Shown in pieces: positions 4,401-19,431 of a DNA stretch of 23,371 bases (the stretch's first letter is position 1; each line of letters starts with the position of its first letter). Source of the stretch: a virus. The notes under the pieces are model-generated. The model was not told where the DNA came from. It was given only the letters and a program-made list of their open reading frames with translations, and searched no databases. Made by a program: the position numbers and the translations under genes. Location of the stretch: positions 1 to 23,371 of the IMG/VR virus record IMGVR_UViG_3300025127_000290. One strand, given 5' to 3'.

Positions 4401-6808
4401 CGTACTCATCATCACAAAGACAGGATAAGTGGGATTTTGGAATAAAAGAAATAACTCTGTCTTTTGAGGGCTCTTCACCAGCGACTTCAACAAAAGACAT
4501 AGTTGTTGATATGAGTATGTTTTTTAGAGACTTTACCGACTTAATAAAGAAGCGAAGACTGGGAACCTATTATGAATTTATTGAGGGCAGGAATGACGAT
4601 AGGCTTTTAGATGATGAATTTAACCTATTCAGCTATTTGGACTTAATTTTATTTCCAATAAGCGACAAAAAACCTCAAATTGATGGGGTTATACCTGCCC
4701 CTTTTCAATACGACCCAGCAAACTATAGAATTAGGCTTGATGTTGGATGGATGAAAAGAGAAGATCCATCATTTAGATCAATTTGTGAATCAAGAGGTCT
4801 TAGCATGGAAATGCTTAATGAAGCAATTGATAAAATAAATAAGTCATATTATTTAAATATGATTGACCATGATCTAGATTTTAAAAATGATGGCTCTGTT
4901 GAAATAAAAGTAAAGATGAGAGCTTTTATGGAGTCTGCTACTCAATCAATCGCAATGGACGCCATCTCAACGCCCGAATTGAACTCCCTAAGAAAGATTC
5001 TCAAAGAAGAAAAAGATAGAGTTCTACCGCAGTGTACGCCTGAAGGCGTTTTAGAGCTTTTAAATATTTATCAACAAATAGAATTGGAGTTTTTAAAAAA
5101 GTCATACCAGTCTATATTCGCGAGACTAATGATGAGGCAGAGAATCTTTTATTGTTTTGCTCATAGAAAGTCTAGAAATGAATTTGCAAAATATGGCTTT
5201 TTTAGCAATATACCACCAGTATATGACGGGCAGAAAACTGCTTATTCAATAGCACAAACAAATGTGAACATTGCTGAACAAGTCAAGGGCCAAGCGAAAG
5301 ATCCTGAAAACATCGTTGCTAATTCTTTTACACTACTTGACGGAGAGCTAAAAAACCTGACACCAGAAACTGTTAATTTTAGTAATGATAATGAGTATGA
5401 AATTGTAAACTTTTTTTATTTTGGGGATTTGATTCACACTTTGATGGATTGTATGTATGAAGCCCCTGACCCAACTGGAACAGCAACTATGGTTGGAAAA
5501 ATAAAAGACGATGTTAGAAATACGGTTGTTATTCTTCCATCATTTGATTATATTGGAAGCGATGGGGAATCACACCATATTAACATGGCTGAAATACCCG
5601 TTTCACTTGATTACTTTTTAGAATTTTTTACTAAAAATGTTTTGGAAGGTGAGAGACAAAGTTATCCCTTGATGCATTTTATTAAAGACTTGTGTAACCG
5701 CTTAATTGTAGACTTGTTTGCAGACTTGTGCTTTAGTTCAAATGTACCAGTGAAGAGTATGTACTTCAAATCAACAACAATTATGGGCGTTTCTCAGAGC
5801 CCACCTGATGATGATGGATTTGTTTTAGACCCGCTAGGGCCACAGTCTGCTAAATATTTCCCCAATACTAGAATAATTGATTTGGAAAGGTGTTATGAGA
5901 GTGGAATTGTACCTTTAAAAACAAATTTGGGAGACAGGCCAATTGAACAGTCTTTTAATTATATTATTGTGTACCCAGCTACCGATACAGATAACTCAAA
6001 TCGTCGAGGCGATAGAGATAGTGATGAAGAATCTGGTATTAGACATTTGTTTGTTGGGGCTGGTGAAGGGCTGCTGAAAAGTATATCATTTAGTAAAGTG
6101 GATATGCAATACCTAAGAGAAGCTAGATATTTTAATCATGGTTATGATAACTTGATGCAATTAGGTGCTGTGTATAAAGCTAGTATTGATATGGTTGGGA
6201 ACACTATGTTTTATCCCGGCATGTCTGTTTTTGTAAATCCAACAACTCTATCACCGGATCCTAATGACATGGACCCCTCAATTGGCCCACTAAGTGTTGG
6301 CGGAGCTTCAATTGCAAATGCTTTGGGGATTGGTGGTTATCACATTGTTACTAAAGTAAAAACGACTATCGGTCGTGGAAAATTTAATACAAATGTTGAA
6401 GCTATTTTTGACTATGCTGGTGACGGCACAAGAACCGACACTATTCAGAATAACGCAGAACCAGACGAAGAAAAAACTCCAAGAGAACAAGGCCTTATTG
6501 CCGCCAGAAGTTACGGAGGACTACCAGAAGGAGCAGATGATAGAGCATGTAGAGCAGTTAGTTCTGCGAGATTACAACACTTAAGCGACTTATACAACCC
6601 TGCCTACCAAACAAATATAGCGGCCGGAAAACCAGATGGGGTTGCGATGGAAGATTATCTCTTTGATAATGCTAATAACATAGCCTCGCAAGCTAGTAAT
6701 GCTAAAGCGCAACAAAAAGCCGCAAATGAAAAAGCATTTGCCGACTCTGTACGCGCAGAGGCTGAAGTCGCGCAAAGAAAAATAGCTAATACAGCAGGTA
6801 CAGAATAA
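1460..6808 (+). CDS. Very large virion structural protein (1782 aa), probably baseplate
   Basis: The largest gene in the window. It starts at ATG 1460 overlapping the previous stop, with AAGGAG 9 bp upstream. No enzyme motif is recognised. Parts that stand out: residues 1-30 aromatic and basic; a likely coiled coil at about 650-690 (KIMKKFEEKIKLKQ); an Ala/Gln-rich stretch at about 805-835 (QQQAAAAAAEQLSKDDELSK); a beta-rich block at about 925-1030 beginning 'IISALVPKIRLFRVF'; and a helical, Ala/Lys-rich tail at 1730-1782. Its place directly after the adaptor and gp53-like genes suggests a baseplate or hub-associated structural component; its size would allow it to replace several smaller wedge proteins. 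The structural call is well supported by context, the specific role is not. It carries no promoter consensus that I trust, so it is probably read from upstream. Confidence 0.6.
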   Translation: MAGGYIQNWYVRNLVHYLVASIGSYPLDKRRLGFMANQHWLSLTATPGEVDTSGNANHYYQSGDSAFHDNSVTRASDTFFARLPAGELVRQSVLSAASGNKAELYCMGEFLFQFLDQWGNENELKQRELMRENMGPWAFDQCWELWSKLSQFHEFDSSAPQKEQIFDKIADVFFSRIDMLSTFGDPVSRPPKFPVSMISVTPGSTDVDVRPQNIGFESLTEAASAGDEALNIISIGNFGNVFKLDFNKLSNGDFKSLSNEQLANIALTYFHKEAKANVSALYTSFQLSYSDSKMASYRRDQVAVAQYQSNGDFSFIGSMFRQYFFGMGWLRTAGGGYRFNDAQINLFKTIFLNQCEQICRLVKENENFQQDTPLPEFYRQPVNWVEDAWKTAKSMLLRPGGVIALQNKTQTINFNVGAGSGEPDSNSLLWHYYDDALKYRYGFFGFYHGDGYGDDFFVAAYKGNWSSTIDVQHGWSDASSGDVGDAYIGADDDPDIKNRMREIFTDPAVTFATSNSVVHGFQNYNGSHTKKNANWKGPYTGTWNIYENCVFSDDGIFENWGEFRREARLNYKANWFWQYRGDRHREFIERFNGLSAAEWVTATHKAHVVESDSDKAAHAKYLADYSNDMYYSIGHQAQFDDPEADYYYNGLCGKIMKKFEEKIKLKQTRRAEYDIEFAKRKQDLMTTGQRLANTDPDSSDFEDAQVQVNLATVQFQLLQSMAESAGVVDSFGNPIPISIDDLYKEATTVMGWSFAIGFACAHRDEIAFKTIDKLIEMSRQEGHDDWYPSSGDLEDIREGVEQALNAGQQQAAAAAAEQLSKDDELSKEQIEERQVFYKQCFLLANMDLFKEEFQRDVYTKTTNGTDPGAANIHAGLKQGEGLEYGGRIKMVDIDSGMGKSTRAEIINKLVSPKGKPIDQFFSMTPDIISALVPKIRLFRVFNDDVGTLREIEFDFPNHMNPDDNQYRASYLSLGEKKADGSYSSSQRQDKWDFGIKEITLSFEGSSPATSTKDIVVDMSMFFRDFTDLIKKRRLGTYYEFIEGRNDDRLLDDEFNLFSYLDLILFPISDKKPQIDGVIPAPFQYDPANYRIRLDVGWMKREDPSFRSICESRGLSMEMLNEAIDKINKSYYLNMIDHDLDFKNDGSVEIKVKMRAFMESATQSIAMDAISTPELNSLRKILKEEKDRVLPQCTPEGVLELLNIYQQIELEFLKKSYQSIFARLMMRQRIFYCFAHRKSRNEFAKYGFFSNIPPVYDGQKTAYSIAQTNVNIAEQVKGQAKDPENIVANSFTLLDGELKNLTPETVNFSNDNEYEIVNFFYFGDLIHTLMDCMYEAPDPTGTATMVGKIKDDVRNTVVILPSFDYIGSDGESHHINMAEIPVSLDYFLEFFTKNVLEGERQSYPLMHFIKDLCNRLIVDLFADLCFSSNVPVKSMYFKSTTIMGVSQSPPDDDGFVLDPLGPQSAKYFPNTRIIDLERCYESGIVPLKTNLGDRPIEQSFNYIIVYPATDTDNSNRRGDRDSDEESGIRHLFVGAGEGLLKSISFSKVDMQYLREARYFNHGYDNLMQLGAVYKASIDMVGNTMFYPGMSVFVNPTTLSPDPNDMDPSIGPLSVGGASIANALGIGGYHIVTKVKTTIGRGKFNTNVEAIFDYAGDGTRTDTIQNNAEPDEEKTPREQGLIAARSYGGLPEGADDRACRAVSSARLQHLSDLYNPAYQTNIAAGKPDGVAMEDYLFDNANNIASQASNAKAQQKAANEKAFADSVRAEAEVAQRKIANTAGTE

Positions 6809-8022
6809 TGAATTTTTTTGGTAAAAATACAAATCCTAATCCATTTATTGCATTTTATGAAAGGTCAAAATACAGACTAAAAGCATATGAGACTATTAAT
6901 TCGACTATAATGCAAGCGGTAAAAGATTTTAGTTTTTCTGACTATGCTTTATACGGCAAAGTTAACTCTGGAGGTATGAGTATATTTCCATTAAACAAAG
7001 GATTAAAAACTTTTATTCCACATGGTGCTAATGAAAATGCAATCATGTTATTAGATTTTGTTGGAGAGGCTTTTGAAGACTTAGTTGATTATTTTGAAAA
7101 ATGCAAAGTATCAGGCAAAATTCCAAATCAAAGCTTTATTAACAATATACAATTATTAAAAGGATATAAGAGCCCAGCACCAGATTATTTTGAATACATA
7201 AGTTTAATGAAAGATTCGTTTCATGAAAATTTTATTATTAATAATAAAAAAAATATACTAAACTTTGATGATTATATTAGAGAATTTATAGACTTTGTAA
7301 AAAGAATGGGTTCTAATTATCCAGTAACTTTGTCCTCTTGGTATAGGACCAAAACAGCGTCTCCATTTCACAGCGGAATATACTTGTCTATTTTAGATAT
7401 TCCATTTGGAGATGACTCTAAAAAAGAAGTGATCGTAAATGATCCTACATTTTCCTTTTTTATACATTCGTGCAAAGAGCACGGGTTTTATGTATACAAA
7501 AATAACCCAAGTGTTTTGGTCGCTGATTTAAAATCAAAATATATGATGGATAAATATTCAAGAAGTTTACCTGCCTCAATTGATGATTTTTTTAGTCTTT
7601 ATTACATGAAGGCTTCACACAACGACATGGATTTACTATACAATGAATTAGTAAAAGGTTACAATGAGTTTGTTGATTTGTACCCAGAACAAAGAAAGAT
7701 CATAATTGGTAAAAACAATCATGCAATATCTGTGTTTACTAAAAGAAATATGTATAATAATAATATTAATTATAATACATTTATTAAATTATATATATTA
7801 ATAAGAAATATAGAAAATGATTATCCATTTCATAGTGTTGAAGTAGATGATATGGCTAATAGTTGTATTTACTATTTAAAAAAACTTGACAGGAATAGAG
7901 TAATAGATTATATTGATCAACAGTTCGTCACACATCTTGCAAATCGACATGGATCTGTTAATTGGTATAAACAATTGATTCACAAAAGCAAAATGACGGG
8001 AGATAACAATGGAGGTTATTAA
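6808..8022 (+). CDS. Protein of unknown function at the structural/replication boundary
   Basis: A 404-residue protein starting at ATG 6808, which overlaps the preceding TAA (TAATG), so translation is probably coupled to the giant structural gene. It is rich in Phe, Tyr, Asn and Lys, as expected from AT-rich coding DNA, and has no signal peptide or clear membrane helix. I recognise no catalytic motif. Segments such as 'VTLSSWYRTKTASPFHSG' and 'DDFFSLYYMKASHNDMD' look like folded soluble domains. Coupling to the tail genes suggests a virion or assembly protein. However, the gene also ends in a good promoter (7886-7914) and overlaps the polymerase start, so it marks the change from late to replication genes. 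A capsid-internal or tail role is guesswork. Confidence 0.4.
   Translation: MNFFGKNTNPNPFIAFYERSKYRLKAYETINSTIMQAVKDFSFSDYALYGKVNSGGMSIFPLNKGLKTFIPHGANENAIMLLDFVGEAFEDLVDYFEKCKVSGKIPNQSFINNIQLLKGYKSPAPDYFEYISLMKDSFHENFIINNKKNILNFDDYIREFIDFVKRMGSNYPVTLSSWYRTKTASPFHSGIYLSILDIPFGDDSKKEVIVNDPTFSFFIHSCKEHGFYVYKNNPSVLVADLKSKYMMDKYSRSLPASIDDFFSLYYMKASHNDMDLLYNELVKGYNEFVDLYPEQRKIIIGKNNHAISVFTKRNMYNNNINYNTFIKLYILIRNIENDYPFHSVEVDDMANSCIYYLKKLDRNRVIDYIDQQFVTHLANRHGSVNWYKQLIHKSKMTGDNNGGY
7886..7914 (+). promoter_or_regulatory. Sigma-70-type promoter inside the 3' end of the 404-aa gene
   Basis: TTGACA at 7886-7891, exactly 17 bases, then TATATT at 7909-7914. The same hexamers and spacing recur at 10018, 10115 and 14109. 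Transcription would begin near 7921, about 100 bp before the polymerase start at 8022, so it would express the replication genes independently of the tail genes. It lies in coding sequence, which raises the chance-match risk, but the match is near-consensus and well placed. Confidence 0.6.
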
Positions 8023-9215
8023 TGTTATTTCAAATACTAGACAACAAGAAAGATTGCTTTGGGGTCTATCATAATGGTAATTTTATCTACGACAGAGTAC
8101 CAGCCAACGTCACAGGAACTTGGAATTATAACAGTTGCCTTAGTGGCCATAATATCAATTTCGCTAATATTTATACCGGTGGTAGAGCATTACATGAAGT
8201 TTGTCCGGAGAATATTAAATTACGATATGGTAAAAGAGAGGAAAAAATAAGATCATTTATTAACGCAGCAGTGAATGCTAAAATAAAAATTGATGATCGC
8301 TGTTTGTTTGAAATTGTACCTGAAAATCATCTTCGTCACTACTGTGAAATAAAGAATCAAATTTGTGATTGGGTCTTTAATAATTACGAAAGACCAGCTA
8401 ACCATGATTTCATTGTTGATTTACATGTAATGGCTGATGAGATTGCAAATAATGTGGTATTAATCGACCATAAACGCCTTAAAAACCACTCCAAAGTAGA
8501 TATGAAGGCTAAGTCACTCCTTAATACATTGAATGGAAAAAATATACCAATTTGCTATGATGTGTGGGGGTCAGTAACAGGCAGACTAACAACAAAAAGG
8601 GGCTCCTTCCCAATAATGAATTTAAAAAAGGAACTGGCTGATATTGTAATTCCAAAAAATAATATATTTGTTCAATTTGATTTGAATGGTGCTGAAATAA
8701 GAACTCTATTATCGCTTTCAACTGGTGCTCACCCAAGAGAGGATGTGCATGAATTCAATATTAAAAATGTATATAGAGGAATCGGCACAAGAGATAAGGC
8801 TAAAAAGAGATTTTTTGCGTGGCTATATAATCCAAACTCTGAGGATTATTTGACTGAGAGGTTTTATAATAAAACTGCTGTACTAAAGAAGCATTATGTT
8901 GGTGGTGTTGTTTGTACGCCATTTGGTAGAAAAATACCAACAGATGATTTTCATGCACTAAATTATCTACTACAAAGTACTTCATCTGATAATTGTATGC
9001 AACAAGCAGTTAAGATTCACAAATTTCTTAAAAATAAAAAATCTTTTGTCCACTCGGTCATACATGATTCGCTAACAATTGATCTTGATTTGAGTGAAAG
9101 ATCAATGCTTCCACAGTTACAAGAGCTGTTTGAAGACACACAGCTTGGTTGGTTTAAATCTTCAGTACAGGTTGGGCATAACTTGAAAGATTTGCTGGAG
9201 GTATCATGGTCTTAA
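8022..9215 (+). CDS. DNA polymerase, family A (compact, no exonuclease domain)
   Basis: Copies phage DNA. The 397-residue protein is only the palm/fingers/thumb part of a Pol I-type enzyme. Visible motifs: 'GRLTTKRGSFPIMNL' (template-binding region before motif A), motif A 'VQFDLNGAEIRTL' with catalytic D220, 'PREDVHEF', motif B R257-K261-F265-Y269 matching E. coli R754-K758-F762-Y766, and motif C 'HSVIHDSLTID' with D349. Motif C is HDS rather than the usual HDE. D220 to D349 is 129 residues, against 177 between D705 and D882 in E. coli Pol I, so fingers and palm are trimmed. No 3'-5' or 5'-3' exonuclease motifs are present; a separate 5'-3' nuclease is at 14155. ATG 8022 follows GGAGG and overlaps the preceding stop. 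The 3' end overlaps the tubulin-like gene by 10 bp. Confidence 0.85.
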   Translation: MLFQILDNKKDCFGVYHNGNFIYDRVPANVTGTWNYNSCLSGHNINFANIYTGGRALHEVCPENIKLRYGKREEKIRSFINAAVNAKIKIDDRCLFEIVPENHLRHYCEIKNQICDWVFNNYERPANHDFIVDLHVMADEIANNVVLIDHKRLKNHSKVDMKAKSLLNTLNGKNIPICYDVWGSVTGRLTTKRGSFPIMNLKKELADIVIPKNNIFVQFDLNGAEIRTLLSLSTGAHPREDVHEFNIKNVYRGIGTRDKAKKRFFAWLYNPNSEDYLTERFYNKTAVLKKHYVGGVVCTPFGRKIPTDDFHALNYLLQSTSSDNCMQQAVKIHKFLKNKKSFVHSVIHDSLTIDLDLSERSMLPQLQELFEDTQLGWFKSSVQVGHNLKDLLEVSWS

Positions 9216-9427
9216 TAGGTATAGGAACAGCCGGCAGTAACGTAGTAAATGAGTTTGGAAAGCAGCACAAAAAAATAACAATTACTGCTGAAGACTTTCC
9301 AAAAAAATGCACAAAAACAGAAGACTATGAAATGTACTGTCCTAGGTTTACAAGAAAATTAAAGTTTTCAAACGAAGAGTGTTGGGTTGCTCTATGGGTG
9401 CTGGTAAAGTTGCTGGATCTACATTAA
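9206..9427 (+). CDS. FtsZ/tubulin-like protein, N-terminal segment (frame broken near 9390)
   Basis: Begins at ATG 9206 with GGAGG upstream, overlapping the polymerase end. The first residues, 'IGIGTAGSNVVNEFG', match the first nucleotide-binding loop of FtsZ/tubulin proteins (G.GgaG.Nvv..). A strand 'KKITITAED' follows, where FtsZ has its NTD loop. The frame continues to a hydrophobic strand 'EECWVA' around 9374-9391 and then becomes unrelated (LWVLVKLLDLH) before a stop. The matching continuation, 'SMGAGKVAGSTLRIL', lies in the -1 frame from 9391. The two pieces therefore look like one gene of about 265 residues divided by a one-base deletion, a sequencing error or ribosomal frameshifting. 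By itself this segment would lack half the GTP site. Confidence 0.6.
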   Translation: MVLIGIGTAGSNVVNEFGKQHKKITITAEDFPKKCTKTEDYEMYCPRFTRKLKFSNEECWVALWVLVKLLDLH

Positions 9428-10008
9428 GAATATTACAGACAATTAAGAATAAAAAAATAAATATCATTTACATTTATCCCGACACATCACTAGCCAATCC
9501 AGCCGAACTTAAAAGGAACAAAGTTGTTTTTAATGTCTTACAGCAGTTTACGAGATCTGGATTACTTAATCGAATGTATCTGTTTTCAAATAAGGAAATT
9601 ATCAACACAATCGGAGACCAGCCAATAAACATGCTGTATAAAATGATAAATAAACAAATAGCAAACTCAATTGAAACATTGGAATGGCTTAAAACACAAA
9701 AACCTGTGTTTGGCTCCCAGCATGAATCAAAAGAAATATCAAGAATATGCACTGTATCTGTAGGTAATTTTGAAAATAATGATGAAAAAATGCTTTTTTT
9801 ACTTGACAACGTATCTGAATCATGCTATAATTATAGTGTAAGCAAAAATCAATTGGAGAAAAATAAAGACTTGCTAAAGATTATAAAAGAAAAAATAGAA
9901 AACGATGATAAAAATAATATTTCATCATCATTTGTTGTTTATACTTCTGAACATAATCAATCATTTTTTTATTCTCTTAAGTTTACACACTATATTCAAG
10001 AAAATTAA
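9379..10008 (+). CDS. FtsZ/tubulin-like protein, main C-terminal segment
   Basis: The -1-frame continuation of the segment at 9206. 'SMGAGKVAGSTLRIL' sits where FtsZ has the GMGGGTGTG phosphate loop. Next come a strand 'INIIYIYPD', a helix 'FNVLQQFTRSGLLNRMY', 'LFSNKEII' (like the FtsZ PNDKLL segment) and the long helix 'NMLYKMINKQIANSIETL' (like H7). The T7-loop region, 'SQHESKEISRI', lacks the usual N-D-x-x-D pattern and has Glu instead, so GTP hydrolysis may be altered. Candidate starts GTG 9379 and ATG 9394 have no good ribosome site, which favours one interrupted gene. A total near 265 residues is short compared with bacterial FtsZ or jumbo-phage PhuZ. The fold call rests on motif order; filament formation is inference. 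Confidence 0.6.
   Translation: MLGCSMGAGKVAGSTLRILQTIKNKKINIIYIYPDTSLANPAELKRNKVVFNVLQQFTRSGLLNRMYLFSNKEIINTIGDQPINMLYKMINKQIANSIETLEWLKTQKPVFGSQHESKEISRICTVSVGNFENNDEKMLFLLDNVSESCYNYSVSKNQLEKNKDLLKIIKEKIENDDKNNISSSFVVYTSEHNQSFFYSLKFTHYIQEN
9803..9831 (+). promoter_or_regulatory. Perfect-consensus sigma-70 promoter inside the tubulin-like gene
   Basis: TTGACA at 9803-9808, 17 bases, then TATAAT at 9826-9831, with TG one base before the -10 box (extended -10). This is the best consensus match in the window. Transcription would begin near 9838 and run into the control region and the small gene at 10272. It is one of three promoters stacked upstream of that gene. Confidence 0.6.
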
Positions 10009-10020
10009 TTTTTTTTCTTG
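9997..10020 (+). repeat. AT-rich inverted repeat ending at a -35 box
   Basis: CAAGAAAA (9997-10004) and TTTTCTTG (10013-10020) form an 8-bp stem spanning the end of the tubulin-like gene. The right arm runs into the TTGACA of the next promoter. It is mostly A/T, so it would be weak as a terminator; it could also act as an UP-element-like T tract. A similar AAGAAAAAA...TTTTTTCTT repeat precedes the promoter at 10115. Confidence 0.4.
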
Positions 10021-10046
10021 ACACCATATACCCAATAGGTTATATT
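10018..10046 (+). promoter_or_regulatory. Promoter with operator-like inverted repeat in the spacer (copy 1)
   Basis: TTGACA 10018-10023, 17-base spacer, TATATT 10041-10046. The spacer and -10 contain ATACCC-AATA-GGTTAT (10028-10043), a 5-of-6 inverted repeat. The block 10014-10050 is a direct repeat of 10111-10147, with 34 of 37 bases identical. A TATAAT at 10046 is also present but would need a 22-base spacer. Confidence 0.75.
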
Positions 10047-10090
10047 ATAATTGTAAGCAAGAAAAGCTTTTAAAAAAATTACAACCCACT

Positions 10091-10116
10091 AAGAAAAAAA
10101 CTTTAACTTTTTTCTT
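10091..10116 (+). repeat. A/T inverted repeat before promoter copy 2
   Basis: AAGAAAAAA (10091-10099) pairs with TTTTTTCTT (10108-10116), a 9-bp stem with an 8-base loop. The right arm merges with the -35 box at 10115. The same design as at 9997 suggests a deliberate T-tract or weak hairpin ahead of each promoter. Confidence 0.4.
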
Positions 10117-10143
10117 GACAACAAATAACCAATAGGTTATATT
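10115..10143 (+). promoter_or_regulatory. Promoter with operator-like inverted repeat in the spacer (copy 2)
   Basis: TTGACA 10115-10120, 17 bases, TATATT 10138-10143. It contains a perfect 6-bp inverted repeat, ATAACC-AATA-GGTTAT (10125-10140), overlapping the -10 box, so a bound protein would block RNA polymerase. Transcription would start near 10150 and give a leader of about 120 bases before the gene at 10272. That leader contains a small TGATGA-CTA-TCATCA hairpin (10182-10196). Confidence 0.8.
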
Positions 10144-10181
10144 ATAAGAGTGGGAAGAAAACTTGTTACGAGTTAAGCCAT

Positions 10182-10271: not shown

Positions 10272-10523
10272 ATGACTACATACACACAATACACTGGAAC
10301 ATTTAGAAAAGCTGATGGTAGCACTCGCACTATGTCTTTTATTAAGACACAAGACTTACCTTCTTCACACTTTTCTGAAGGACAAATTAAAGGTAATCGT
10401 TCCCGTGATGGTAAAACTGAAGTTGTTTATGATACTCAGCTTCGATCATTTCGTCGATTCAATCACTCGACACAAATTGGTCAAATTTCTGAGCAAACTG
10501 TTCAGTATTCATTTGACAGCTAA
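10272..10523 (+). CDS. Small SH3/Sm-like phage protein (DUF2693/WYL_2-like)
   Basis: An 83-residue protein with a strong ribosome site (ACGGAGG) before ATG 10272. The pattern 'KADGSTRTMSFIKT' followed by 'VVYDTQLRSFRRFN' matches the usual layout of small T4-type phage proteins of the DUF2693/WYL_2 family (f.KaDGt.R.m..., then V.VyD....RsFR), predicted to form an Sm-like SH3 barrel. The function of the family is not established. The gene is served by three upstream promoters, and its last codons contain the -35 box of the SSB promoter. That suggests high or early expression. A nucleic-acid-binding or regulatory role for the repeated operators around it is speculation. Confidence 0.6.
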   Translation: MTTYTQYTGTFRKADGSTRTMSFIKTQDLPSSHFSEGQIKGNRSRDGKTEVVYDTQLRSFRRFNHSTQIGQISEQTVQYSFDS

Positions 10524-10541
10524 CCAACAATTGGTTACATT
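10513..10541 (+). promoter_or_regulatory. SSB promoter with inverted repeat in the spacer (copy 3)
   Basis: TTGACA 10513-10518 lies in the last codons of the SH3-like gene, followed by 17 bases and TACATT 10536-10541. The spacer carries AACCAA-CAA-TTGGTT (10522-10536), a perfect 6-bp inverted repeat similar to those at 10028 and 10125. Transcription should begin at about 10548, some 70 bases before the SSB start. Confidence 0.75.
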
Positions 10542-10616: not shown

Positions 10617-11381
10617 ATGGCTATAAATTTAGATTTAATGCGAAAGAAGCTGAACACTTCTAAAAATAATGGTAAAGAACAAGATAATACCAAGTGGCGC
10701 CCATCCGAAGGCGATCAAACAGTTCGAATTCTACCAACTTCTGATGGAGACCCTTTCAAAGAGTTTCACTTTCACTATAACGTTGGTAAAAACCCCGGCA
10801 TTCTTTGTCCAAAAAGAAATCATGGTGAAGATTGTCCAATCTGTGACTTTGCATCAAAGCTGTGGCGTGAAGGCGTCGAAAATAGTGATGATACTGCAAA
10901 GCGCGAAGCGAAAAAACTATTCGCAAGAAAGCGGTACTACTCACCAATCATTGTACGTGGCGAGGAGTCAAAAGGCGTAAGAGTATGGGCTTACGGTAAA
11001 ACTGCTTATGAAACACTTCTATCATATGTCCTCGATCCAGACTATGGTGATATTACTCATGCTGAAACTGGTACTGATATTGTATTGAACTATACTATTC
11101 CCGGTACACCCGGATCATTTCCCAAGACTGCTTTAAAACCACGTCGCAGACCTTCTGTCTTATGTGATGATGAAGTGGCTGATTGTGATGAGTTGATTAA
11201 TTCGATTCCTGAGATTGAGACCCTGTTCCAGCGGCACTCAACACAAGATGTTCAGGCGTTGCTGGATGAATATTTGTCCTCCGATGTTACCTCCGAAGGT
11301 CTCTCCAGTGAGTCGAACCATTACAATTCCCAGAAGACTGTTGATTCGGCTTTAAAGAACTTTCTAAACCAAGAAAGTTAA
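10617..11381 (+). CDS. Single-stranded DNA-binding protein, T4 gp32-like
   Basis: Coats single-stranded DNA during replication and recombination. The 254-residue protein begins with a basic, Asn-rich segment (MRKKLNTSKNNGKEQDNTKW), then an OB-fold-type core starting 'VRILPTSDGDPFKEFHFHY'. A zinc-binding cluster follows: C64, H69, C73 and C76 in 'LCPKRNHGEDCPICDFA', the gp32-type site in the same region of the fold. The C-terminal part is acidic, then Ser/Asn-rich, ending 'ALKNFLNQES', suitable for partner contacts. ATG 10617 follows AATAGGAGATAAAC. It has its own promoter (10513) and leader hairpin and is followed by a weak terminator-like hairpin, fitting a protein needed in larger amounts than its downstream neighbours. 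It lies next to RecA, as expected for a recombination partner. Confidence 0.85.
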   Translation: MAINLDLMRKKLNTSKNNGKEQDNTKWRPSEGDQTVRILPTSDGDPFKEFHFHYNVGKNPGILCPKRNHGEDCPICDFASKLWREGVENSDDTAKREAKKLFARKRYYSPIIVRGEESKGVRVWAYGKTAYETLLSYVLDPDYGDITHAETGTDIVLNYTIPGTPGSFPKTALKPRRRPSVLCDDEVADCDELINSIPEIETLFQRHSTQDVQALLDEYLSSDVTSEGLSSESNHYNSQKTVDSALKNFLNQES

Positions 11382-11393
11382 TTGGGAGTGTGG

Positions 11394-11421
11394 GCCCCGC
11401 ACTTAAAACTGGGGCACTTTT
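11394..11421 (+). terminator. Weak terminator / attenuator after SSB
   Basis: GCCCC (11394-11398), a 12-base loop, GGGGC (11411-11415), then ACTTTT. The stem is GC-rich but short and the T run is only four bases, so partial read-through is likely. It would reduce expression of the ATPase and RecA genes relative to SSB. Confidence 0.45.
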
Positions 11422-11435
11422 ACAATAGGAGAACC

Positions 11436-12959
11436 ATGACCACGACTTTAGATACATTTAAAATTAATCCGAGTGATGGGTTGTTTCGCAAATTAGGATC
11501 TCTCAACATTGAGTGGCCCCATGTAATTTGGGAACTTGTAAACAACTCAATACAGGCAGCAGATGATAGAGATTTAGATTTAAACTTAAAAATTATATTT
11601 GATTTTGATTCCGAAACCGAAAAACTTAATCAACTTACGGTACAAGATAAATCTGGCGGGATCAAAAGATCAGATATTTCCGTAGCCCTTGAACCAGCGG
11701 CCTTTCGAGATACAGAAAGGACTCTAAATGAACACAGCATGGGACTCAATATCGCAATCGAGCACTTAACACAAGGTAAGGGCTCTTATGAGTTAAGAAG
11801 CCACATTGGAGATAATAGCTTCATTATTAGTGATCGTCTTTCTTTTCACAAAGAAATATCAATCCACTCTCTGGATTCTAATGAAAAGCATGGTGTTGAG
11901 CTTATATTTTCTGATTTTGAAGATCAATTTGGCGATCTAAAGTTTCCTAATGGTGGATCGACCAATGCTCTATGGTATTTTTGGACCGATACATGTGCAA
12001 AATACCGGTATAAGTATGAATCCTTTATGAACGTTGGTAGAGATTTTAAAATAGAAATTGTTTGTAATTGTGGCTCACGATCAAGAAATAGAAAATACAC
12101 ACCAGTAAAGCCAGTATTAAAAAATCCTTTGAATGGAAAGAATGAGTGGGTCACAGAATTTGTACTTGAAGATCAAGATGTTAAAATCCATTATAAAATT
12201 GGCGCAGCAAGTTTACCCCATGAATCATATAATAAAGATGCTGGTCATGTTAATATATGGAATTCAATACATCCATATAGAGTTAAGACTGGGAACTTTG
12301 GTCTTGACTTAATCTATCAAGACGTTGTATTGGAACGTAATACACTATATAAGGACAAGCGAAACTCTTGGTGGGATCACTCACTTCTTCGTGGAGAAAA
12401 AATAATACTCTCCGGTGGAGAAAGTTTCTTTACCAAAGATGGAATGAAGGAAACAGAGGCAATTAGGTTCTTGGATGAAAAAGCGAAGAAAATCTTTAAC
12501 GGACAAGAACCGCACCCTTTAACAGGCGATAAGACCAATTTTTTTGATAACTTCATCAACAGAAAGAATCATGATAGAACAACCCCATGCGCACCAGAAA
12601 AAATTGTAAAATTCCGTCATCGGGAAATTCTAGAGTGTTTTATGGGAGAACAAGTATCGCAAGAATTAAATCTGCCTTGTGGGAGAATAGATATGATGTC
12701 ACCTACAACTGTCTACGAACATAAGATAAAATCATCAAAGCCAGATGATATTATGCAATTACTTAAATACTTATTATTCTGCCCAGAACACTCCGGAGAA
12801 CTATGGGCAGATGGACACACTGATGCTTCCAAAGAGACATGCACCAAAGTGAATGAACTATTAGCTGCTTCGGGAACAAATCAAAAAATAGTATTAAAAG
12901 ATCTCACCGAACAACTTAAGAACCCTAACTTAACTGACGATGAAAAAGAATTATTATAA
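11436..12959 (+). CDS. GHKL ATPase with a C-terminal PD-(D/E)XK-like motif
   Basis: A 507-residue protein. ATG 11436 is chosen because AATAGGAGAACC precedes it; the frame is open further upstream to 11382 but has no ribosome site there. N-terminal GHKL (Hsp90/MutL/histidine-kinase) ATPase motifs: E33 and N37 in 'ELVNNSIQAADD', D71 in 'QDKSGGI', and G103 in 'EHSMGLNIAIEHL'. Residues about 250-370 are a linker or transducer region I do not recognise. Near the C-terminus 'GRIDMMSPTTVYEHKIK' gives D419, E428 and K430, followed by a helix with Q441 and Y445 (QLLKY), the order expected of a PD-(D/E)XK nuclease core. An ATP-gated nuclease acting in recombination or repair is inferred from its place between SSB and RecA. 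The ATPase half is much surer than the nuclease half. Confidence 0.65.
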   Translation: MTTTLDTFKINPSDGLFRKLGSLNIEWPHVIWELVNNSIQAADDRDLDLNLKIIFDFDSETEKLNQLTVQDKSGGIKRSDISVALEPAAFRDTERTLNEHSMGLNIAIEHLTQGKGSYELRSHIGDNSFIISDRLSFHKEISIHSLDSNEKHGVELIFSDFEDQFGDLKFPNGGSTNALWYFWTDTCAKYRYKYESFMNVGRDFKIEIVCNCGSRSRNRKYTPVKPVLKNPLNGKNEWVTEFVLEDQDVKIHYKIGAASLPHESYNKDAGHVNIWNSIHPYRVKTGNFGLDLIYQDVVLERNTLYKDKRNSWWDHSLLRGEKIILSGGESFFTKDGMKETEAIRFLDEKAKKIFNGQEPHPLTGDKTNFFDNFINRKNHDRTTPCAPEKIVKFRHREILECFMGEQVSQELNLPCGRIDMMSPTTVYEHKIKSSKPDDIMQLLKYLLFCPEHSGELWADGHTDASKETCTKVNELLAASGTNQKIVLKDLTEQLKNPNLTDDEKELL

Positions 12960-12969
12960 AGGAGAAACA

Positions 12970-14049
12970 ATGGGAGAACTACTAAAAATGAAAACAGGAA
13001 AGATTAACGTTGCTGATCTTGCAAAGAAGATCAACAAGAAAATGGGAATGAATGTCGCTCATGACCTTTCCCAATCAGATCCGGTATCCGTAAAGGATTG
13101 GATTCCAACCGGATCAAAATGGCTTGACTTAATTGTGAGTCCGGGCCAAGAAGCAGGAATCCCTGTTGGAAAGATTACTGAACTGGCCGGCTTGTCCGGT
13201 TCTGGTAAATCATTCATGGCGGCACAGATTGCAGCGAATGCCCAAAAGAAGGGAATGTTCGTTGTTTATTTTGACGCAGAGTCAGCTATTGACCCTGAGT
13301 TCTTAGAGAAGGCAGGTTGTTCAAAAGACCAACTTCTTTACTATCAAGCCACGAGCGTTGAGAATGTGCTCAACACAATGGAATATGTAATGAATGAATA
13401 TGGGGAAGCCCGTGTTCTGTTCATCTGGGACAGTGTAGCTGCCACTCCGTCCGAGAAAGATTTGGAAGGTGACTTTAATCCTCAATCTTCTATGGCTGTT
13501 AAGCCAAGAATTTTTTCGAAAGCATTTCCTAAACTTACGATTCCATTAGCGAACACTGAATCAACGCTCCTTATGATTAACCAATTGAAAACCAATATCT
13601 CATCAAATCCAATGATGGCTCTTGTTGAGCCTTACATTGCACCCGGAGGAAAAGCGATTGAATACTTCAGTTCTCTTAGAATCTGGCTAACAAAGCGAAA
13701 GTCAAAGGCTAGTTTTGCGATAGATGAAGATGGTACAAGAATTGGTTCTCATGTTAGATGTTTTATCAAAAAGTCTCGTTTCGGTTCCGAAGGTCGTGAC
13801 TGTGAATTTAAAATCATTTGGGGTAATGAGATTGGTATACAAGATGAAGAATCTTGGCTAGAGATCCTTAAACGCTCAAAAACGCCTAATTTTTCATCCG
13901 CCGGTGCATGGTACACCCTTATACCAAAAGAAGGAAAACCAATGAAATTTCAGTCAAAACAGTGGAAAGATAAGTTAAAAGATGAAACATTTCGAAATGC
14001 CGTTATTGATTTATTAAATGAAGTAATGGTAGAAAAATACAAATCATAA
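12970..14049 (+). CDS. RecA/UvsX-type recombinase
   Basis: Strand-exchange ATPase for recombination-dependent replication and repair. ATG 12970 has AAAGGAGAAACA just upstream, so it is preferred to ATG 12940, which overlaps the previous gene. The 359-residue protein has Walker A 'GLSGSGKS' (74-81), 'VVYFDAESAIDPEFL', Walker B region 'VLFIWDSVAATPS', 'LLMINQLK' (like the RecA L2 side) and 'APGGKAIEYFSSLRIWL', which is diagnostic of RecA/UvsX proteins. Length is close to RecA and somewhat below T4 UvsX. It is the last gene before a strong terminator and probably shares a transcript with SSB and the GHKL ATPase. Confidence 0.9.
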   Translation: MGELLKMKTGKINVADLAKKINKKMGMNVAHDLSQSDPVSVKDWIPTGSKWLDLIVSPGQEAGIPVGKITELAGLSGSGKSFMAAQIAANAQKKGMFVVYFDAESAIDPEFLEKAGCSKDQLLYYQATSVENVLNTMEYVMNEYGEARVLFIWDSVAATPSEKDLEGDFNPQSSMAVKPRIFSKAFPKLTIPLANTESTLLMINQLKTNISSNPMMALVEPYIAPGGKAIEYFSSLRIWLTKRKSKASFAIDEDGTRIGSHVRCFIKKSRFGSEGRDCEFKIIWGNEIGIQDEESWLEILKRSKTPNFSSAGAWYTLIPKEGKPMKFQSKQWKDKLKDETFRNAVIDLLNEVMVEKYKS

Positions 14050-18389: not shown

Positions 18390-18692
18390 ATGAAAGGAAA
18401 ATTTCAACCATTTAACAGACATTTAGTTGTTGATGTAATAGAAGATAAGAAAGAAGAAAAGGATAGTCTCATTGTCCTTCCAACTGATTATGAGAAACCT
18501 CTAGATCCTTTTGTTAAAGCAATTGTTATTGCAATAGCCGAGGATTCAAAACTACGTGATAAATTATCTCTAAACGATGTGATTCTAGTTGAGAGAAGGA
18601 TGCTTCATAAAGTTGAGATTAGTGAATATTTGTTCTATTTAGTGTTAGAAAATTACATTTATGGGAGAATTAACGATGAAACTGACCGCTGA
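18390..18692 (+). CDS. GroES-like co-chaperonin
   Basis: A 100-residue protein with TAGGAGTAAAA before ATG 18390. The pattern 'FNRHLVVDVIEDKKEEKDS' then 'LIVLPTDYEKPLDPFVKAIVIAIAEDS' then 'LSLNDVILVERRMLHKVEI' and a final 'FYLVLENYIYGRI' follows GroES: strand, mobile loop with a short hydrophobic motif (here near LIVLP), a strand-turn 'kA.V.aig', then 'GD.Vlv......v'. The size matches GroES (97 aa) and T4 gp31 (111 aa), which team with host GroEL to fold the capsid protein. Sequence similarity is weak, so the call relies on order of elements and length. Its stop overlaps the ribosome site region of the next gene. Confidence 0.55.
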   Translation: MKGKFQPFNRHLVVDVIEDKKEEKDSLIVLPTDYEKPLDPFVKAIVIAIAEDSKLRDKLSLNDVILVERRMLHKVEISEYLFYLVLENYIYGRINDETDR

Positions 18693-19431
18693 TACACTAA
18701 GGAGCTTAATAAAAGAGGTGATTTCTGAATCAAAACAAAAATCTTGGATTCTAACAGAAAACTATGGTAATAATGATTTTGAAAACGCATACAGCAAAAT
18801 GGCTGATCCGCAAGGGCCTGCTCAATTTGCTTTTATAACTGCTCACAATCCTCCGGGGAAAAGCAAACACGGTAAAGGGTTTGGATGGAATAATGAAAAC
18901 CAACAAAGGAGATTAATCAACGATCTTAGCACTAGAGGGTATGAGTTCGTAACTGGACATGGAGTTTATGGTGGGGCCCCTGAAGAAAGTCTAATGGTTT
19001 TTAGCAAAAACAACAAAATAGAGGGCAGGTTTAAAGTTGATATGATTAAACTTGGAAAGAAATATTTACAAGATGCAATTGTATATGGAGAAAAATATTT
19101 AGGGGCAGCTATCGACTATAGTGCCGGTGAAAAGCCCATAGACGCAGATACTGGCGAACCAATGTCTCAGGCTGCTGGTATGCAAACTGAAACAGGTCCT
19201 AGAATTTTTTGGAATATGAAGATGGTTATGCTTGAGCCAGATAAAACTTCACGCCCAACTAGTTTTGAAAAATACCACATTGATAAACAATCTAACTTTT
19301 TGCTAACAGGAAAAATGATTCAAGATCGGAAGGATTTTTATACTATTATGAGAGGAATGAAGTCATATATTCCTTTTTACGATGATGAAAGAGAGGAGTA
19401 TATAGCTAATCCATATCCGGTGAGACAGTGA
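18676..19431 (+). CDS. DUF3293-like protein of unknown function
   Basis: A 251-residue protein. ATG 18676 is preferred to ATG 18661 because GGGAGA lies 7 bases upstream of it. Residues 1-20 (KLTADTLRSLIKEVISE) form an amphipathic helix like the N-terminal leader seen on many T4-like marine phage proteins. The core 'FAFITAHNPPGKSKHG', 'NENQQRRLINDL', 'GAPEESLMVF' and 'KLGKKYLQDAIVYGEK' follows the DUF3293 layout (aw.TA.NP, N...L...L, w.EpS, lg..f.QdA). The function of that family is not known. The gene lies between the GroES-like and ThyX genes; its TGA overlaps the ThyX ATG. The extra C-terminal 90 residues are not explained by the domain. Confidence 0.6.
   Translation: MKLTADTLRSLIKEVISESKQKSWILTENYGNNDFENAYSKMADPQGPAQFAFITAHNPPGKSKHGKGFGWNNENQQRRLINDLSTRGYEFVTGHGVYGGAPEESLMVFSKNNKIEGRFKVDMIKLGKKYLQDAIVYGEKYLGAAIDYSAGEKPIDADTGEPMSQAAGMQTETGPRIFWNMKMVMLEPDKTSRPTSFEKYHIDKQSNFLLTGKMIQDRKDFYTIMRGMKSYIPFYDDEREEYIANPYPVRQ

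Follow-up and report, generated by a model that had tools for sequence, protein, structure and literature searches.

A compact tubulin/FtsZ-like protein predicted in the replication cassette of uncultured phages

Most of what is known about phage tubulins comes from jumbo phages and plasmid-like phages, in which these proteins form filaments that move DNA. The window analysed here is a 23,371-nucleotide stretch of viral DNA (IMG/VR record IMGVR_UViG_3300025127_000290, positions 1 to 23,371), in which a small gene with FtsZ-like strings overlaps a family A DNA polymerase gene (polA). The locus raises the question of whether a tubulin is encoded among replication genes and, if so, what it does there. 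The protein, which we call the mini-tubulin, is smaller than the tubulins with which it was compared. Its gene is part of a core replication operon, and the portion of the fold that carries out catalysis is missing.

The mini-tubulin gene and its family

The mini-tubulin is encoded by one gene of approximately 267 codons (9206–10008), which is broken in the window contig and is under purifying selection. This gene, its motifs and the cassette genes of the window are all on the plus strand. Its ATG start codon at 9206 gives a 10-nt overlap with the polA stop (9215). Two open reading frames, 9206–9427 and 9379–10008, cover the gene, which is intact in relatives such as L001, L002, L003 and L007. 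The frameshift point is located at 9395–9397 (approximately between 9396 and 9397), where DNA alignment showed that a single base is absent relative to all compared relatives. The base is present in six of the six relatives aligned as DNA (CTATG-GGTGCT in the window versus CTCTGTGGTGCT in L001), and all 168 full-length relatives are uninterrupted single frames of 256–298 amino acids. Programmed frameshifting at 9396 was considered and rejected because the slippery heptamer is absent and every relative is read in a single frame. Without a slippery site, the break reflects either an error in the sequence of the window contig or a deletion that arose recently. The dN/dS values of close pairs of relatives were 0.05–0.11 where they could be estimated, including in a clade that has lost the guanine pocket described below. 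Therefore, the mini-tubulin is a real gene under purifying selection.

The initial annotation, made from sequence alone, had proposed a single gene overlapping a family A polymerase, which is correct except that the gene is frameshifted in this contig. The strings that it quoted were confirmed in the window: GIGTAGSN (9218–9241), GAGKVAG (9397–9417), LFSNKEII (9580–9603) and an H7-like segment (9625–9693). Its longer string SMGAGKVAG was only partly right; "SM" consists of wrong-frame residues, and intact relatives read ALCGAGKVAG.

The family was assembled by a search with the 3' part of the gene, which gave one relative, then with polymerase and protein profiles, and then with the motif [NGH][VI]LQ[EQN][YF][AT]RS in IMG/VR. 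At least 591 IMG/VR stretches encode relatives. The largest retrieved contigs encoding a mini-tubulin are below 200 kb, and the phages are uncultured. Whole-record searches, often on incomplete records, revealed one copy per record and no canonical or second tubulin. A tblastn search with three members gave no match in 50,697 phage records, which include 179 PhuZ genes. The sole match in 84,980 bacterial and archaeal genomes was L072, in a WOR-3 metagenome-assembled genome (MAG; CP070664.1). This locus gives no host, because it is a phage replication cassette fragment that is flanked on both sides by runs of N; its presence in a bacterial MAG chromosome is probably a scaffolding or binning artefact. 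Two cultured phages with similar single-stranded DNA-binding protein (SSB) and UvsX genes, Microcystis phage Mel-JY01 and Flavobacterium phage immuto, were rejected as carriers of a homologue, as they have an unrelated protein behind polA. This slot protein of 130–155 residues (L110, 5597–6061, in Mel-JY01; L111, 1346–1798, in immuto) contains the motif ILVHRKKESNTLYTINALN.

The Pfam tubulin profile PF00091 detected no family member above the cut-off in 20 whole viral records, often incomplete (best score, 13.2 bits). Therefore, the family is invisible to standard annotation. Matches to PHROGs were weak, and none was to a tubulin family. No earlier description of the mini-tubulin family was found in the open-access literature searched.

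Predicted fold and conserved sites

Two intact members, L003 and L004, which are approximately 24% identical, were modeled with AlphaFold2 (pLDDT 92.4 and pTM 0.90 for L003; pLDDT 92.4 and pTM 0.91 for L004). The input alignments were small, with only 43 and 29 sequences. The predicted fold consists of a GTPase core, a long helix H7 and a C-terminal sheet domain. In Foldseek searches of the PDB, TubZ and FtsZ ranked first for both models, with matches spanning the whole chain. The L003 model matched TubZ (4ei7, E = 3.4e-12, TMq 0.73–0.77) and FtsZ (1fsz, 1.4e-11), and the L004 model matched FtsZ (7ojd, E = 1.6e-12, TMq 0.71) and CetZ (3zid, 5.2e-12). The top matches in a viral structure library were phage FtsZ-like, PhuZ and tubulin proteins, and Noxifer PhuZ was matched in BFVD (E = 2e-6). 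Profile-profile comparison by hhalign gave probabilities of 50% to FtsZ, 37% to PhuZ and 90.6% to FtsZ and PhuZ combined; FtsZ against PhuZ, the positive control, gave 95.9%. Weaker methods were less clear: a PDB profile search placed FtsZ at E = 1.4, and single-sequence Pfam searches found TrkA_N in 7 of 43 members but Tubulin in only 3 (best, 5.5e-4). A chance match of strings is excluded because the fold and profile comparisons agree and the control profiles of six other families of the same cassette gave no more than 0.4%. We consider the tubulin/FtsZ fold to be settled at the level of prediction.

The initial reading of a small tubulin-type GTPase thus holds in its main part. It passed both of the checks that had been set for it beforehand: the predicted structure shows the GTPase core and a 23-residue H7 and matches TubZ and FtsZ, and the superfamily profile match was obtained. 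The claim that the T7 loop lacks the usual Asp pair was also borne out. However, the claimed shortening of the N-terminal region was not; the residues that are missing come instead from the H2/S3/T3 region and from T7-H8.

The T1 phosphate loop GIGTAGSN (9218–9241) aligns with the GVGGGGGN box of FtsZ, and its GxGxxG glycines are conserved (G7 in 168, G5 in 165 and G10 in 160 of the 168 members). The T4-equivalent loop GAGKVAG (9397–9417; GGGTGTG in FtsZ) does not meet the signature GGGTG[ST]G. Instead, a shorter loop resembling G[SA]GK[IV][SA]G is present, and it differs between clades. Helix H7 (9625–9693) corresponds to the predicted helix 141–163 of L003. Guanine-contact roles, and the B. 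subtilis numbering, are known from FtsZ structures. Residues N129, Y145 and N149 of L003 align with E. coli FtsZ N165, an aromatic residue (B. subtilis F183) and N186 (B. subtilis D187), respectively, and are predicted guanine contacts. The first is encoded at 9589–9591, and the other two, both in H7, at 9637–9651.

Of the 168 members, 149 carry both N129 and N149 and 16 carry neither; in the remaining three the two positions disagree, and two of these three have Asp at position 149, as in B. subtilis FtsZ. Deviations at the two positions coincide best among 1,378 pairs of conserved columns (Jaccard 0.84), and the next-ranked pairs are N129 and N149, each with A9 of T1. This joint presence and loss, together with the top co-variation, argues for a working nucleotide pocket. 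Nucleotide binding is therefore likely in approximately 90% of members; this is an inference from the joint constraint, and there are no binding data. On the polymerase tree of a 42-row subset, three joint losses of the pocket are required, two of them on well-supported branches. Three losses do not suffice to test significance by independent pairs. Nearly all of the pocket-less members have an acidic residue in T4 in place of the usual glycine or lysine (GxE, GRD).

The T7-equivalent loop (9694–9744) has no conserved acidic residues and is not followed by helix H8. This segment is coil in both models (164–180 in L003, and likewise in L004). Across the 168 sequences, Asp and Glu together reach at most 62% in any column of the T7 segment (column 174). 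Protofilaments of tubulin, FtsZ and phiKZ TubZ share a longitudinal contact that is built from the T7 loop, the base of H8 and S9 (PMC3678025). With the T7 acids and H8 missing throughout the family, neither canonical GTP hydrolysis nor protofilament stacking seems possible, which is an inference without biochemistry. Acidic side chains at positions 166, 174 and 177, present in 55–62% of members, could conceivably form a non-canonical catalytic site, and filaments built through an unusual interface cannot be ruled out.

The most invariant stretch of the family is the signature VLQxYxRSG at the end of H5 (9535–9561; VLQQFTRSG in the window), with Q113 and R117 each conserved in 167 and S118 in 168 of 168 members. 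It is retained in the pocket-less members. This surface is the likeliest partner-binding site, although this is inferred and no interaction data exist. The C-terminus is a short tail, predicted with low confidence in the L003 model.

Each known relative shares only part of these features. PhuZ, the tubulin of phiKZ-like jumbo phages, is also phage-encoded with the tubulin fold, and the mini-tubulin profile resembles the combined FtsZ and PhuZ set. However, the PhuZ proteins compared are longer (314–344 versus 256–298 residues), and the direct match of 37% does not place the mini-tubulin within PhuZ by sequence. The PhuZ proteins of phiKZ and 201phi2-1 keep the catalytic Asp of T7 and use the C-terminal tail in the filament (PMC3678025), whereas the mini-tubulin lacks the T7 acids, H8 and an acidic C-terminal tail and resides in a polA-SSB cassette. 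TubZ, the partition tubulin of Bacillus plasmids and phages, is the best PDB match of the L003 model (TMq up to 0.77), but its target chains are longer (360–410 residues). TubZ hydrolyses GTP and has TubR and tubC partners and a C-terminal tail. No winged helix-turn-helix (wHTH) TubR gene lies next to the mini-tubulin; the neighbor is a WYL_2/Sm-like gene, which is missing from many loci. A search behind the mini-tubulin for centromere iterons found only promoter-like repeats. FtsZ shares the fold (E = 1.6e-12), the T1 box, the guanine-contact residues and H7. However, the mini-tubulin is only about 10% identical to it, lacks the T7 NxDxxD motif and H8, has an altered T4 and is surrounded by replication genes rather than division genes. 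FtsZl1 (Makarova and Koonin 2010) has no alignable T6-T7 and possibly a novel mode of filament formation, and it provides a precedent for a superfamily branch without canonical T6-T7 and C-terminal features (PMC2875224). Unlike the mini-tubulin, FtsZl1 is a cellular protein that has coiled-coil extensions and for which a role at the membrane has been proposed (PMC2875224), and T6/H7, which cannot be aligned in FtsZl1, is conserved in the mini-tubulin. The mini-tubulin has the fold, T1, H7 and guanine contacts of the superfamily but differs from FtsZ, TubZ and PhuZ in T7/H8, T4, partners and tail. It is thus probably a new branch of this known superfamily, compact in size and located where a tubulin would not be expected in a genome; the fold on which this rests is predicted by model.

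The replication cassette

The mini-tubulin belongs to a cassette with the order 404-residue protein, exonuclease-less polA, mini-tubulin, WYL_2 (in part of the family), gp32-type SSB and UvsX. In the window, the 404-residue protein (6808–8022) has no Pfam match and no known function, and it is conserved throughout the family, immediately upstream of polA. The family A polymerase (8022–9215; PHROG_17, 4e-11; PF00476, 1.8e-5), whose gene overlaps the mini-tubulin start, has 397 residues and lacks a recognisable exonuclease domain. The WYL_2/Sm-like protein of 83 residues (10272–10523; PF10902, 7e-4), the gp32-type SSB (10617–11381; PF08804, 1.7e-17) and the UvsX/RecA-type recombinase (12940–14049; PHROG_97, 1.6e-62) follow downstream.

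The initial annotation had suggested looking for the gene beside polA in related phages, and this association was confirmed. Among 176 distinct loci, polA lies upstream of the mini-tubulin in 141 of the 143 with room for it, and a gp32-type SSB lies downstream in all 132 with room. In the two polA exceptions (L136 and L164), other genes are inserted, and no polymerase was visible on the fragment. This linkage was not created by the search, because most loci were fetched by a tubulin-derived pattern. The mini-tubulin start overlaps or abuts the polymerase stop in 71 of the 141 loci, and the gap exceeds 30 nt in 54. A search for sliding clamps with PF02916 gave no match in 12 records, and positive controls of that clamp family also fell below the cut-off.

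Several minor features were observed around the gene. Two pentapeptide-repeat genes (552–1777) lie directly upstream of the mini-tubulin in L164. Right behind the window mini-tubulin are two near-identical sigma-70-like promoters (TTGACA-17-TATATT) at 10018–10047 and 10115–10144, which share the exact 16-mer CCAATAGGTTATATTA; a weaker copy is located at 10527. Similar repeats occur in L001.

Possible function and alternatives

We favor, at somewhat less than even odds, the reading that the mini-tubulin binds GTP and serves the replisome as an accessory or scaffold that is not dynamic. Binding, loss of hydrolysis, partner and effect are all inferred, without any experiment. The protein would bind GTP in a switch-like manner, without hydrolysis in a tubulin-type filament. 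Loaded with GTP near the replication fork, it may serve the polymerase, the SSB or both as a scaffold or regulatory subunit. Overlapping translation would allow it to be made in step with the polymerase, and the VLQxYxRSG surface would contact the partner even where the guanine pocket has been lost. The fixed position between polymerase and SSB, the overlapping translation and the near-invariant surface outside the pocket argue for a replication role with a protein partner, and the absence of T7 and H8 speaks against hydrolysis coupled to a polymer. However, a neighborhood of polA and SSB genes is no proof of physical contact. A bolder version, which is possible, is a fixed GTP-sensing replisome subunit that replaces a processivity or regulatory factor and is a pure scaffold in lineages without GTP binding. 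If the favored reading is true, a cytoskeletal GTPase has been turned into a replisome part, and the nucleotide was later given up in some branches. The family makes it testable what a tubulin fold retains once polymerisation-coupled hydrolysis is removed.

The alternative that survives best is that the mini-tubulin forms filaments, through the canonical or a new interface, and in the manner of PhuZ and TubZ uses them to position or segregate the DNA of the phage or replication centres. Its location would then be explained because such a filament handles the replicating genome. The best structural match of the L003 model is TubZ, the guanine pocket is jointly constrained, and characterised phage tubulins form filaments (PMC4244570, PMC3678025). 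However, parts of the T7/H8 base/S9 longitudinal contact (PMC3678025), namely the T7 acids and H8, are gone, only a short tail is present rather than the acidic tail of PhuZ, no wHTH TubR-like partner adjoins the gene, and the 16 pocket-less members of 168 are still conserved. This alternative remains possible. The initial annotation had also suggested DNA positioning; the tight linkage to polA and SSB favors a replication role over it.

A second alternative is a decoy or capper of host FtsZ, which would end the filament and stop division during infection. In agreement with this idea, the prediction is that one filament face (nucleotide) survives and that the other (T7/H8) has gone. However, approximately 10% identity to FtsZ is too low for an FtsZ interface to be expected, a gene for host takeover would have no need of a fixed place between polA and SSB, and pocket-less members would not function in this way; we consider it unlikely. 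An ordinary NAD(P)-binding Rossmann-type protein that resembles FtsZ by chance, as the N-terminal GxGxxG box and the weak Pfam matches to TrkA_N (best 1.5e-3) and other NAD-binding families might suggest, is very improbable given that Foldseek places TubZ and FtsZ first over the whole chain for two models and that the 23-residue H7 and the N..Y...N pocket are at FtsZ positions.

Further along the window, a 525-residue protein with a HATPase_c (GHKL) domain is encoded at 11382–12959, between SSB and UvsX, and a different GHKL-looking protein is encoded in L003 (9428–11257). A Cpn10/GroES-like protein (18390–18692) is followed by a DUF3293 protein (18661–19431).
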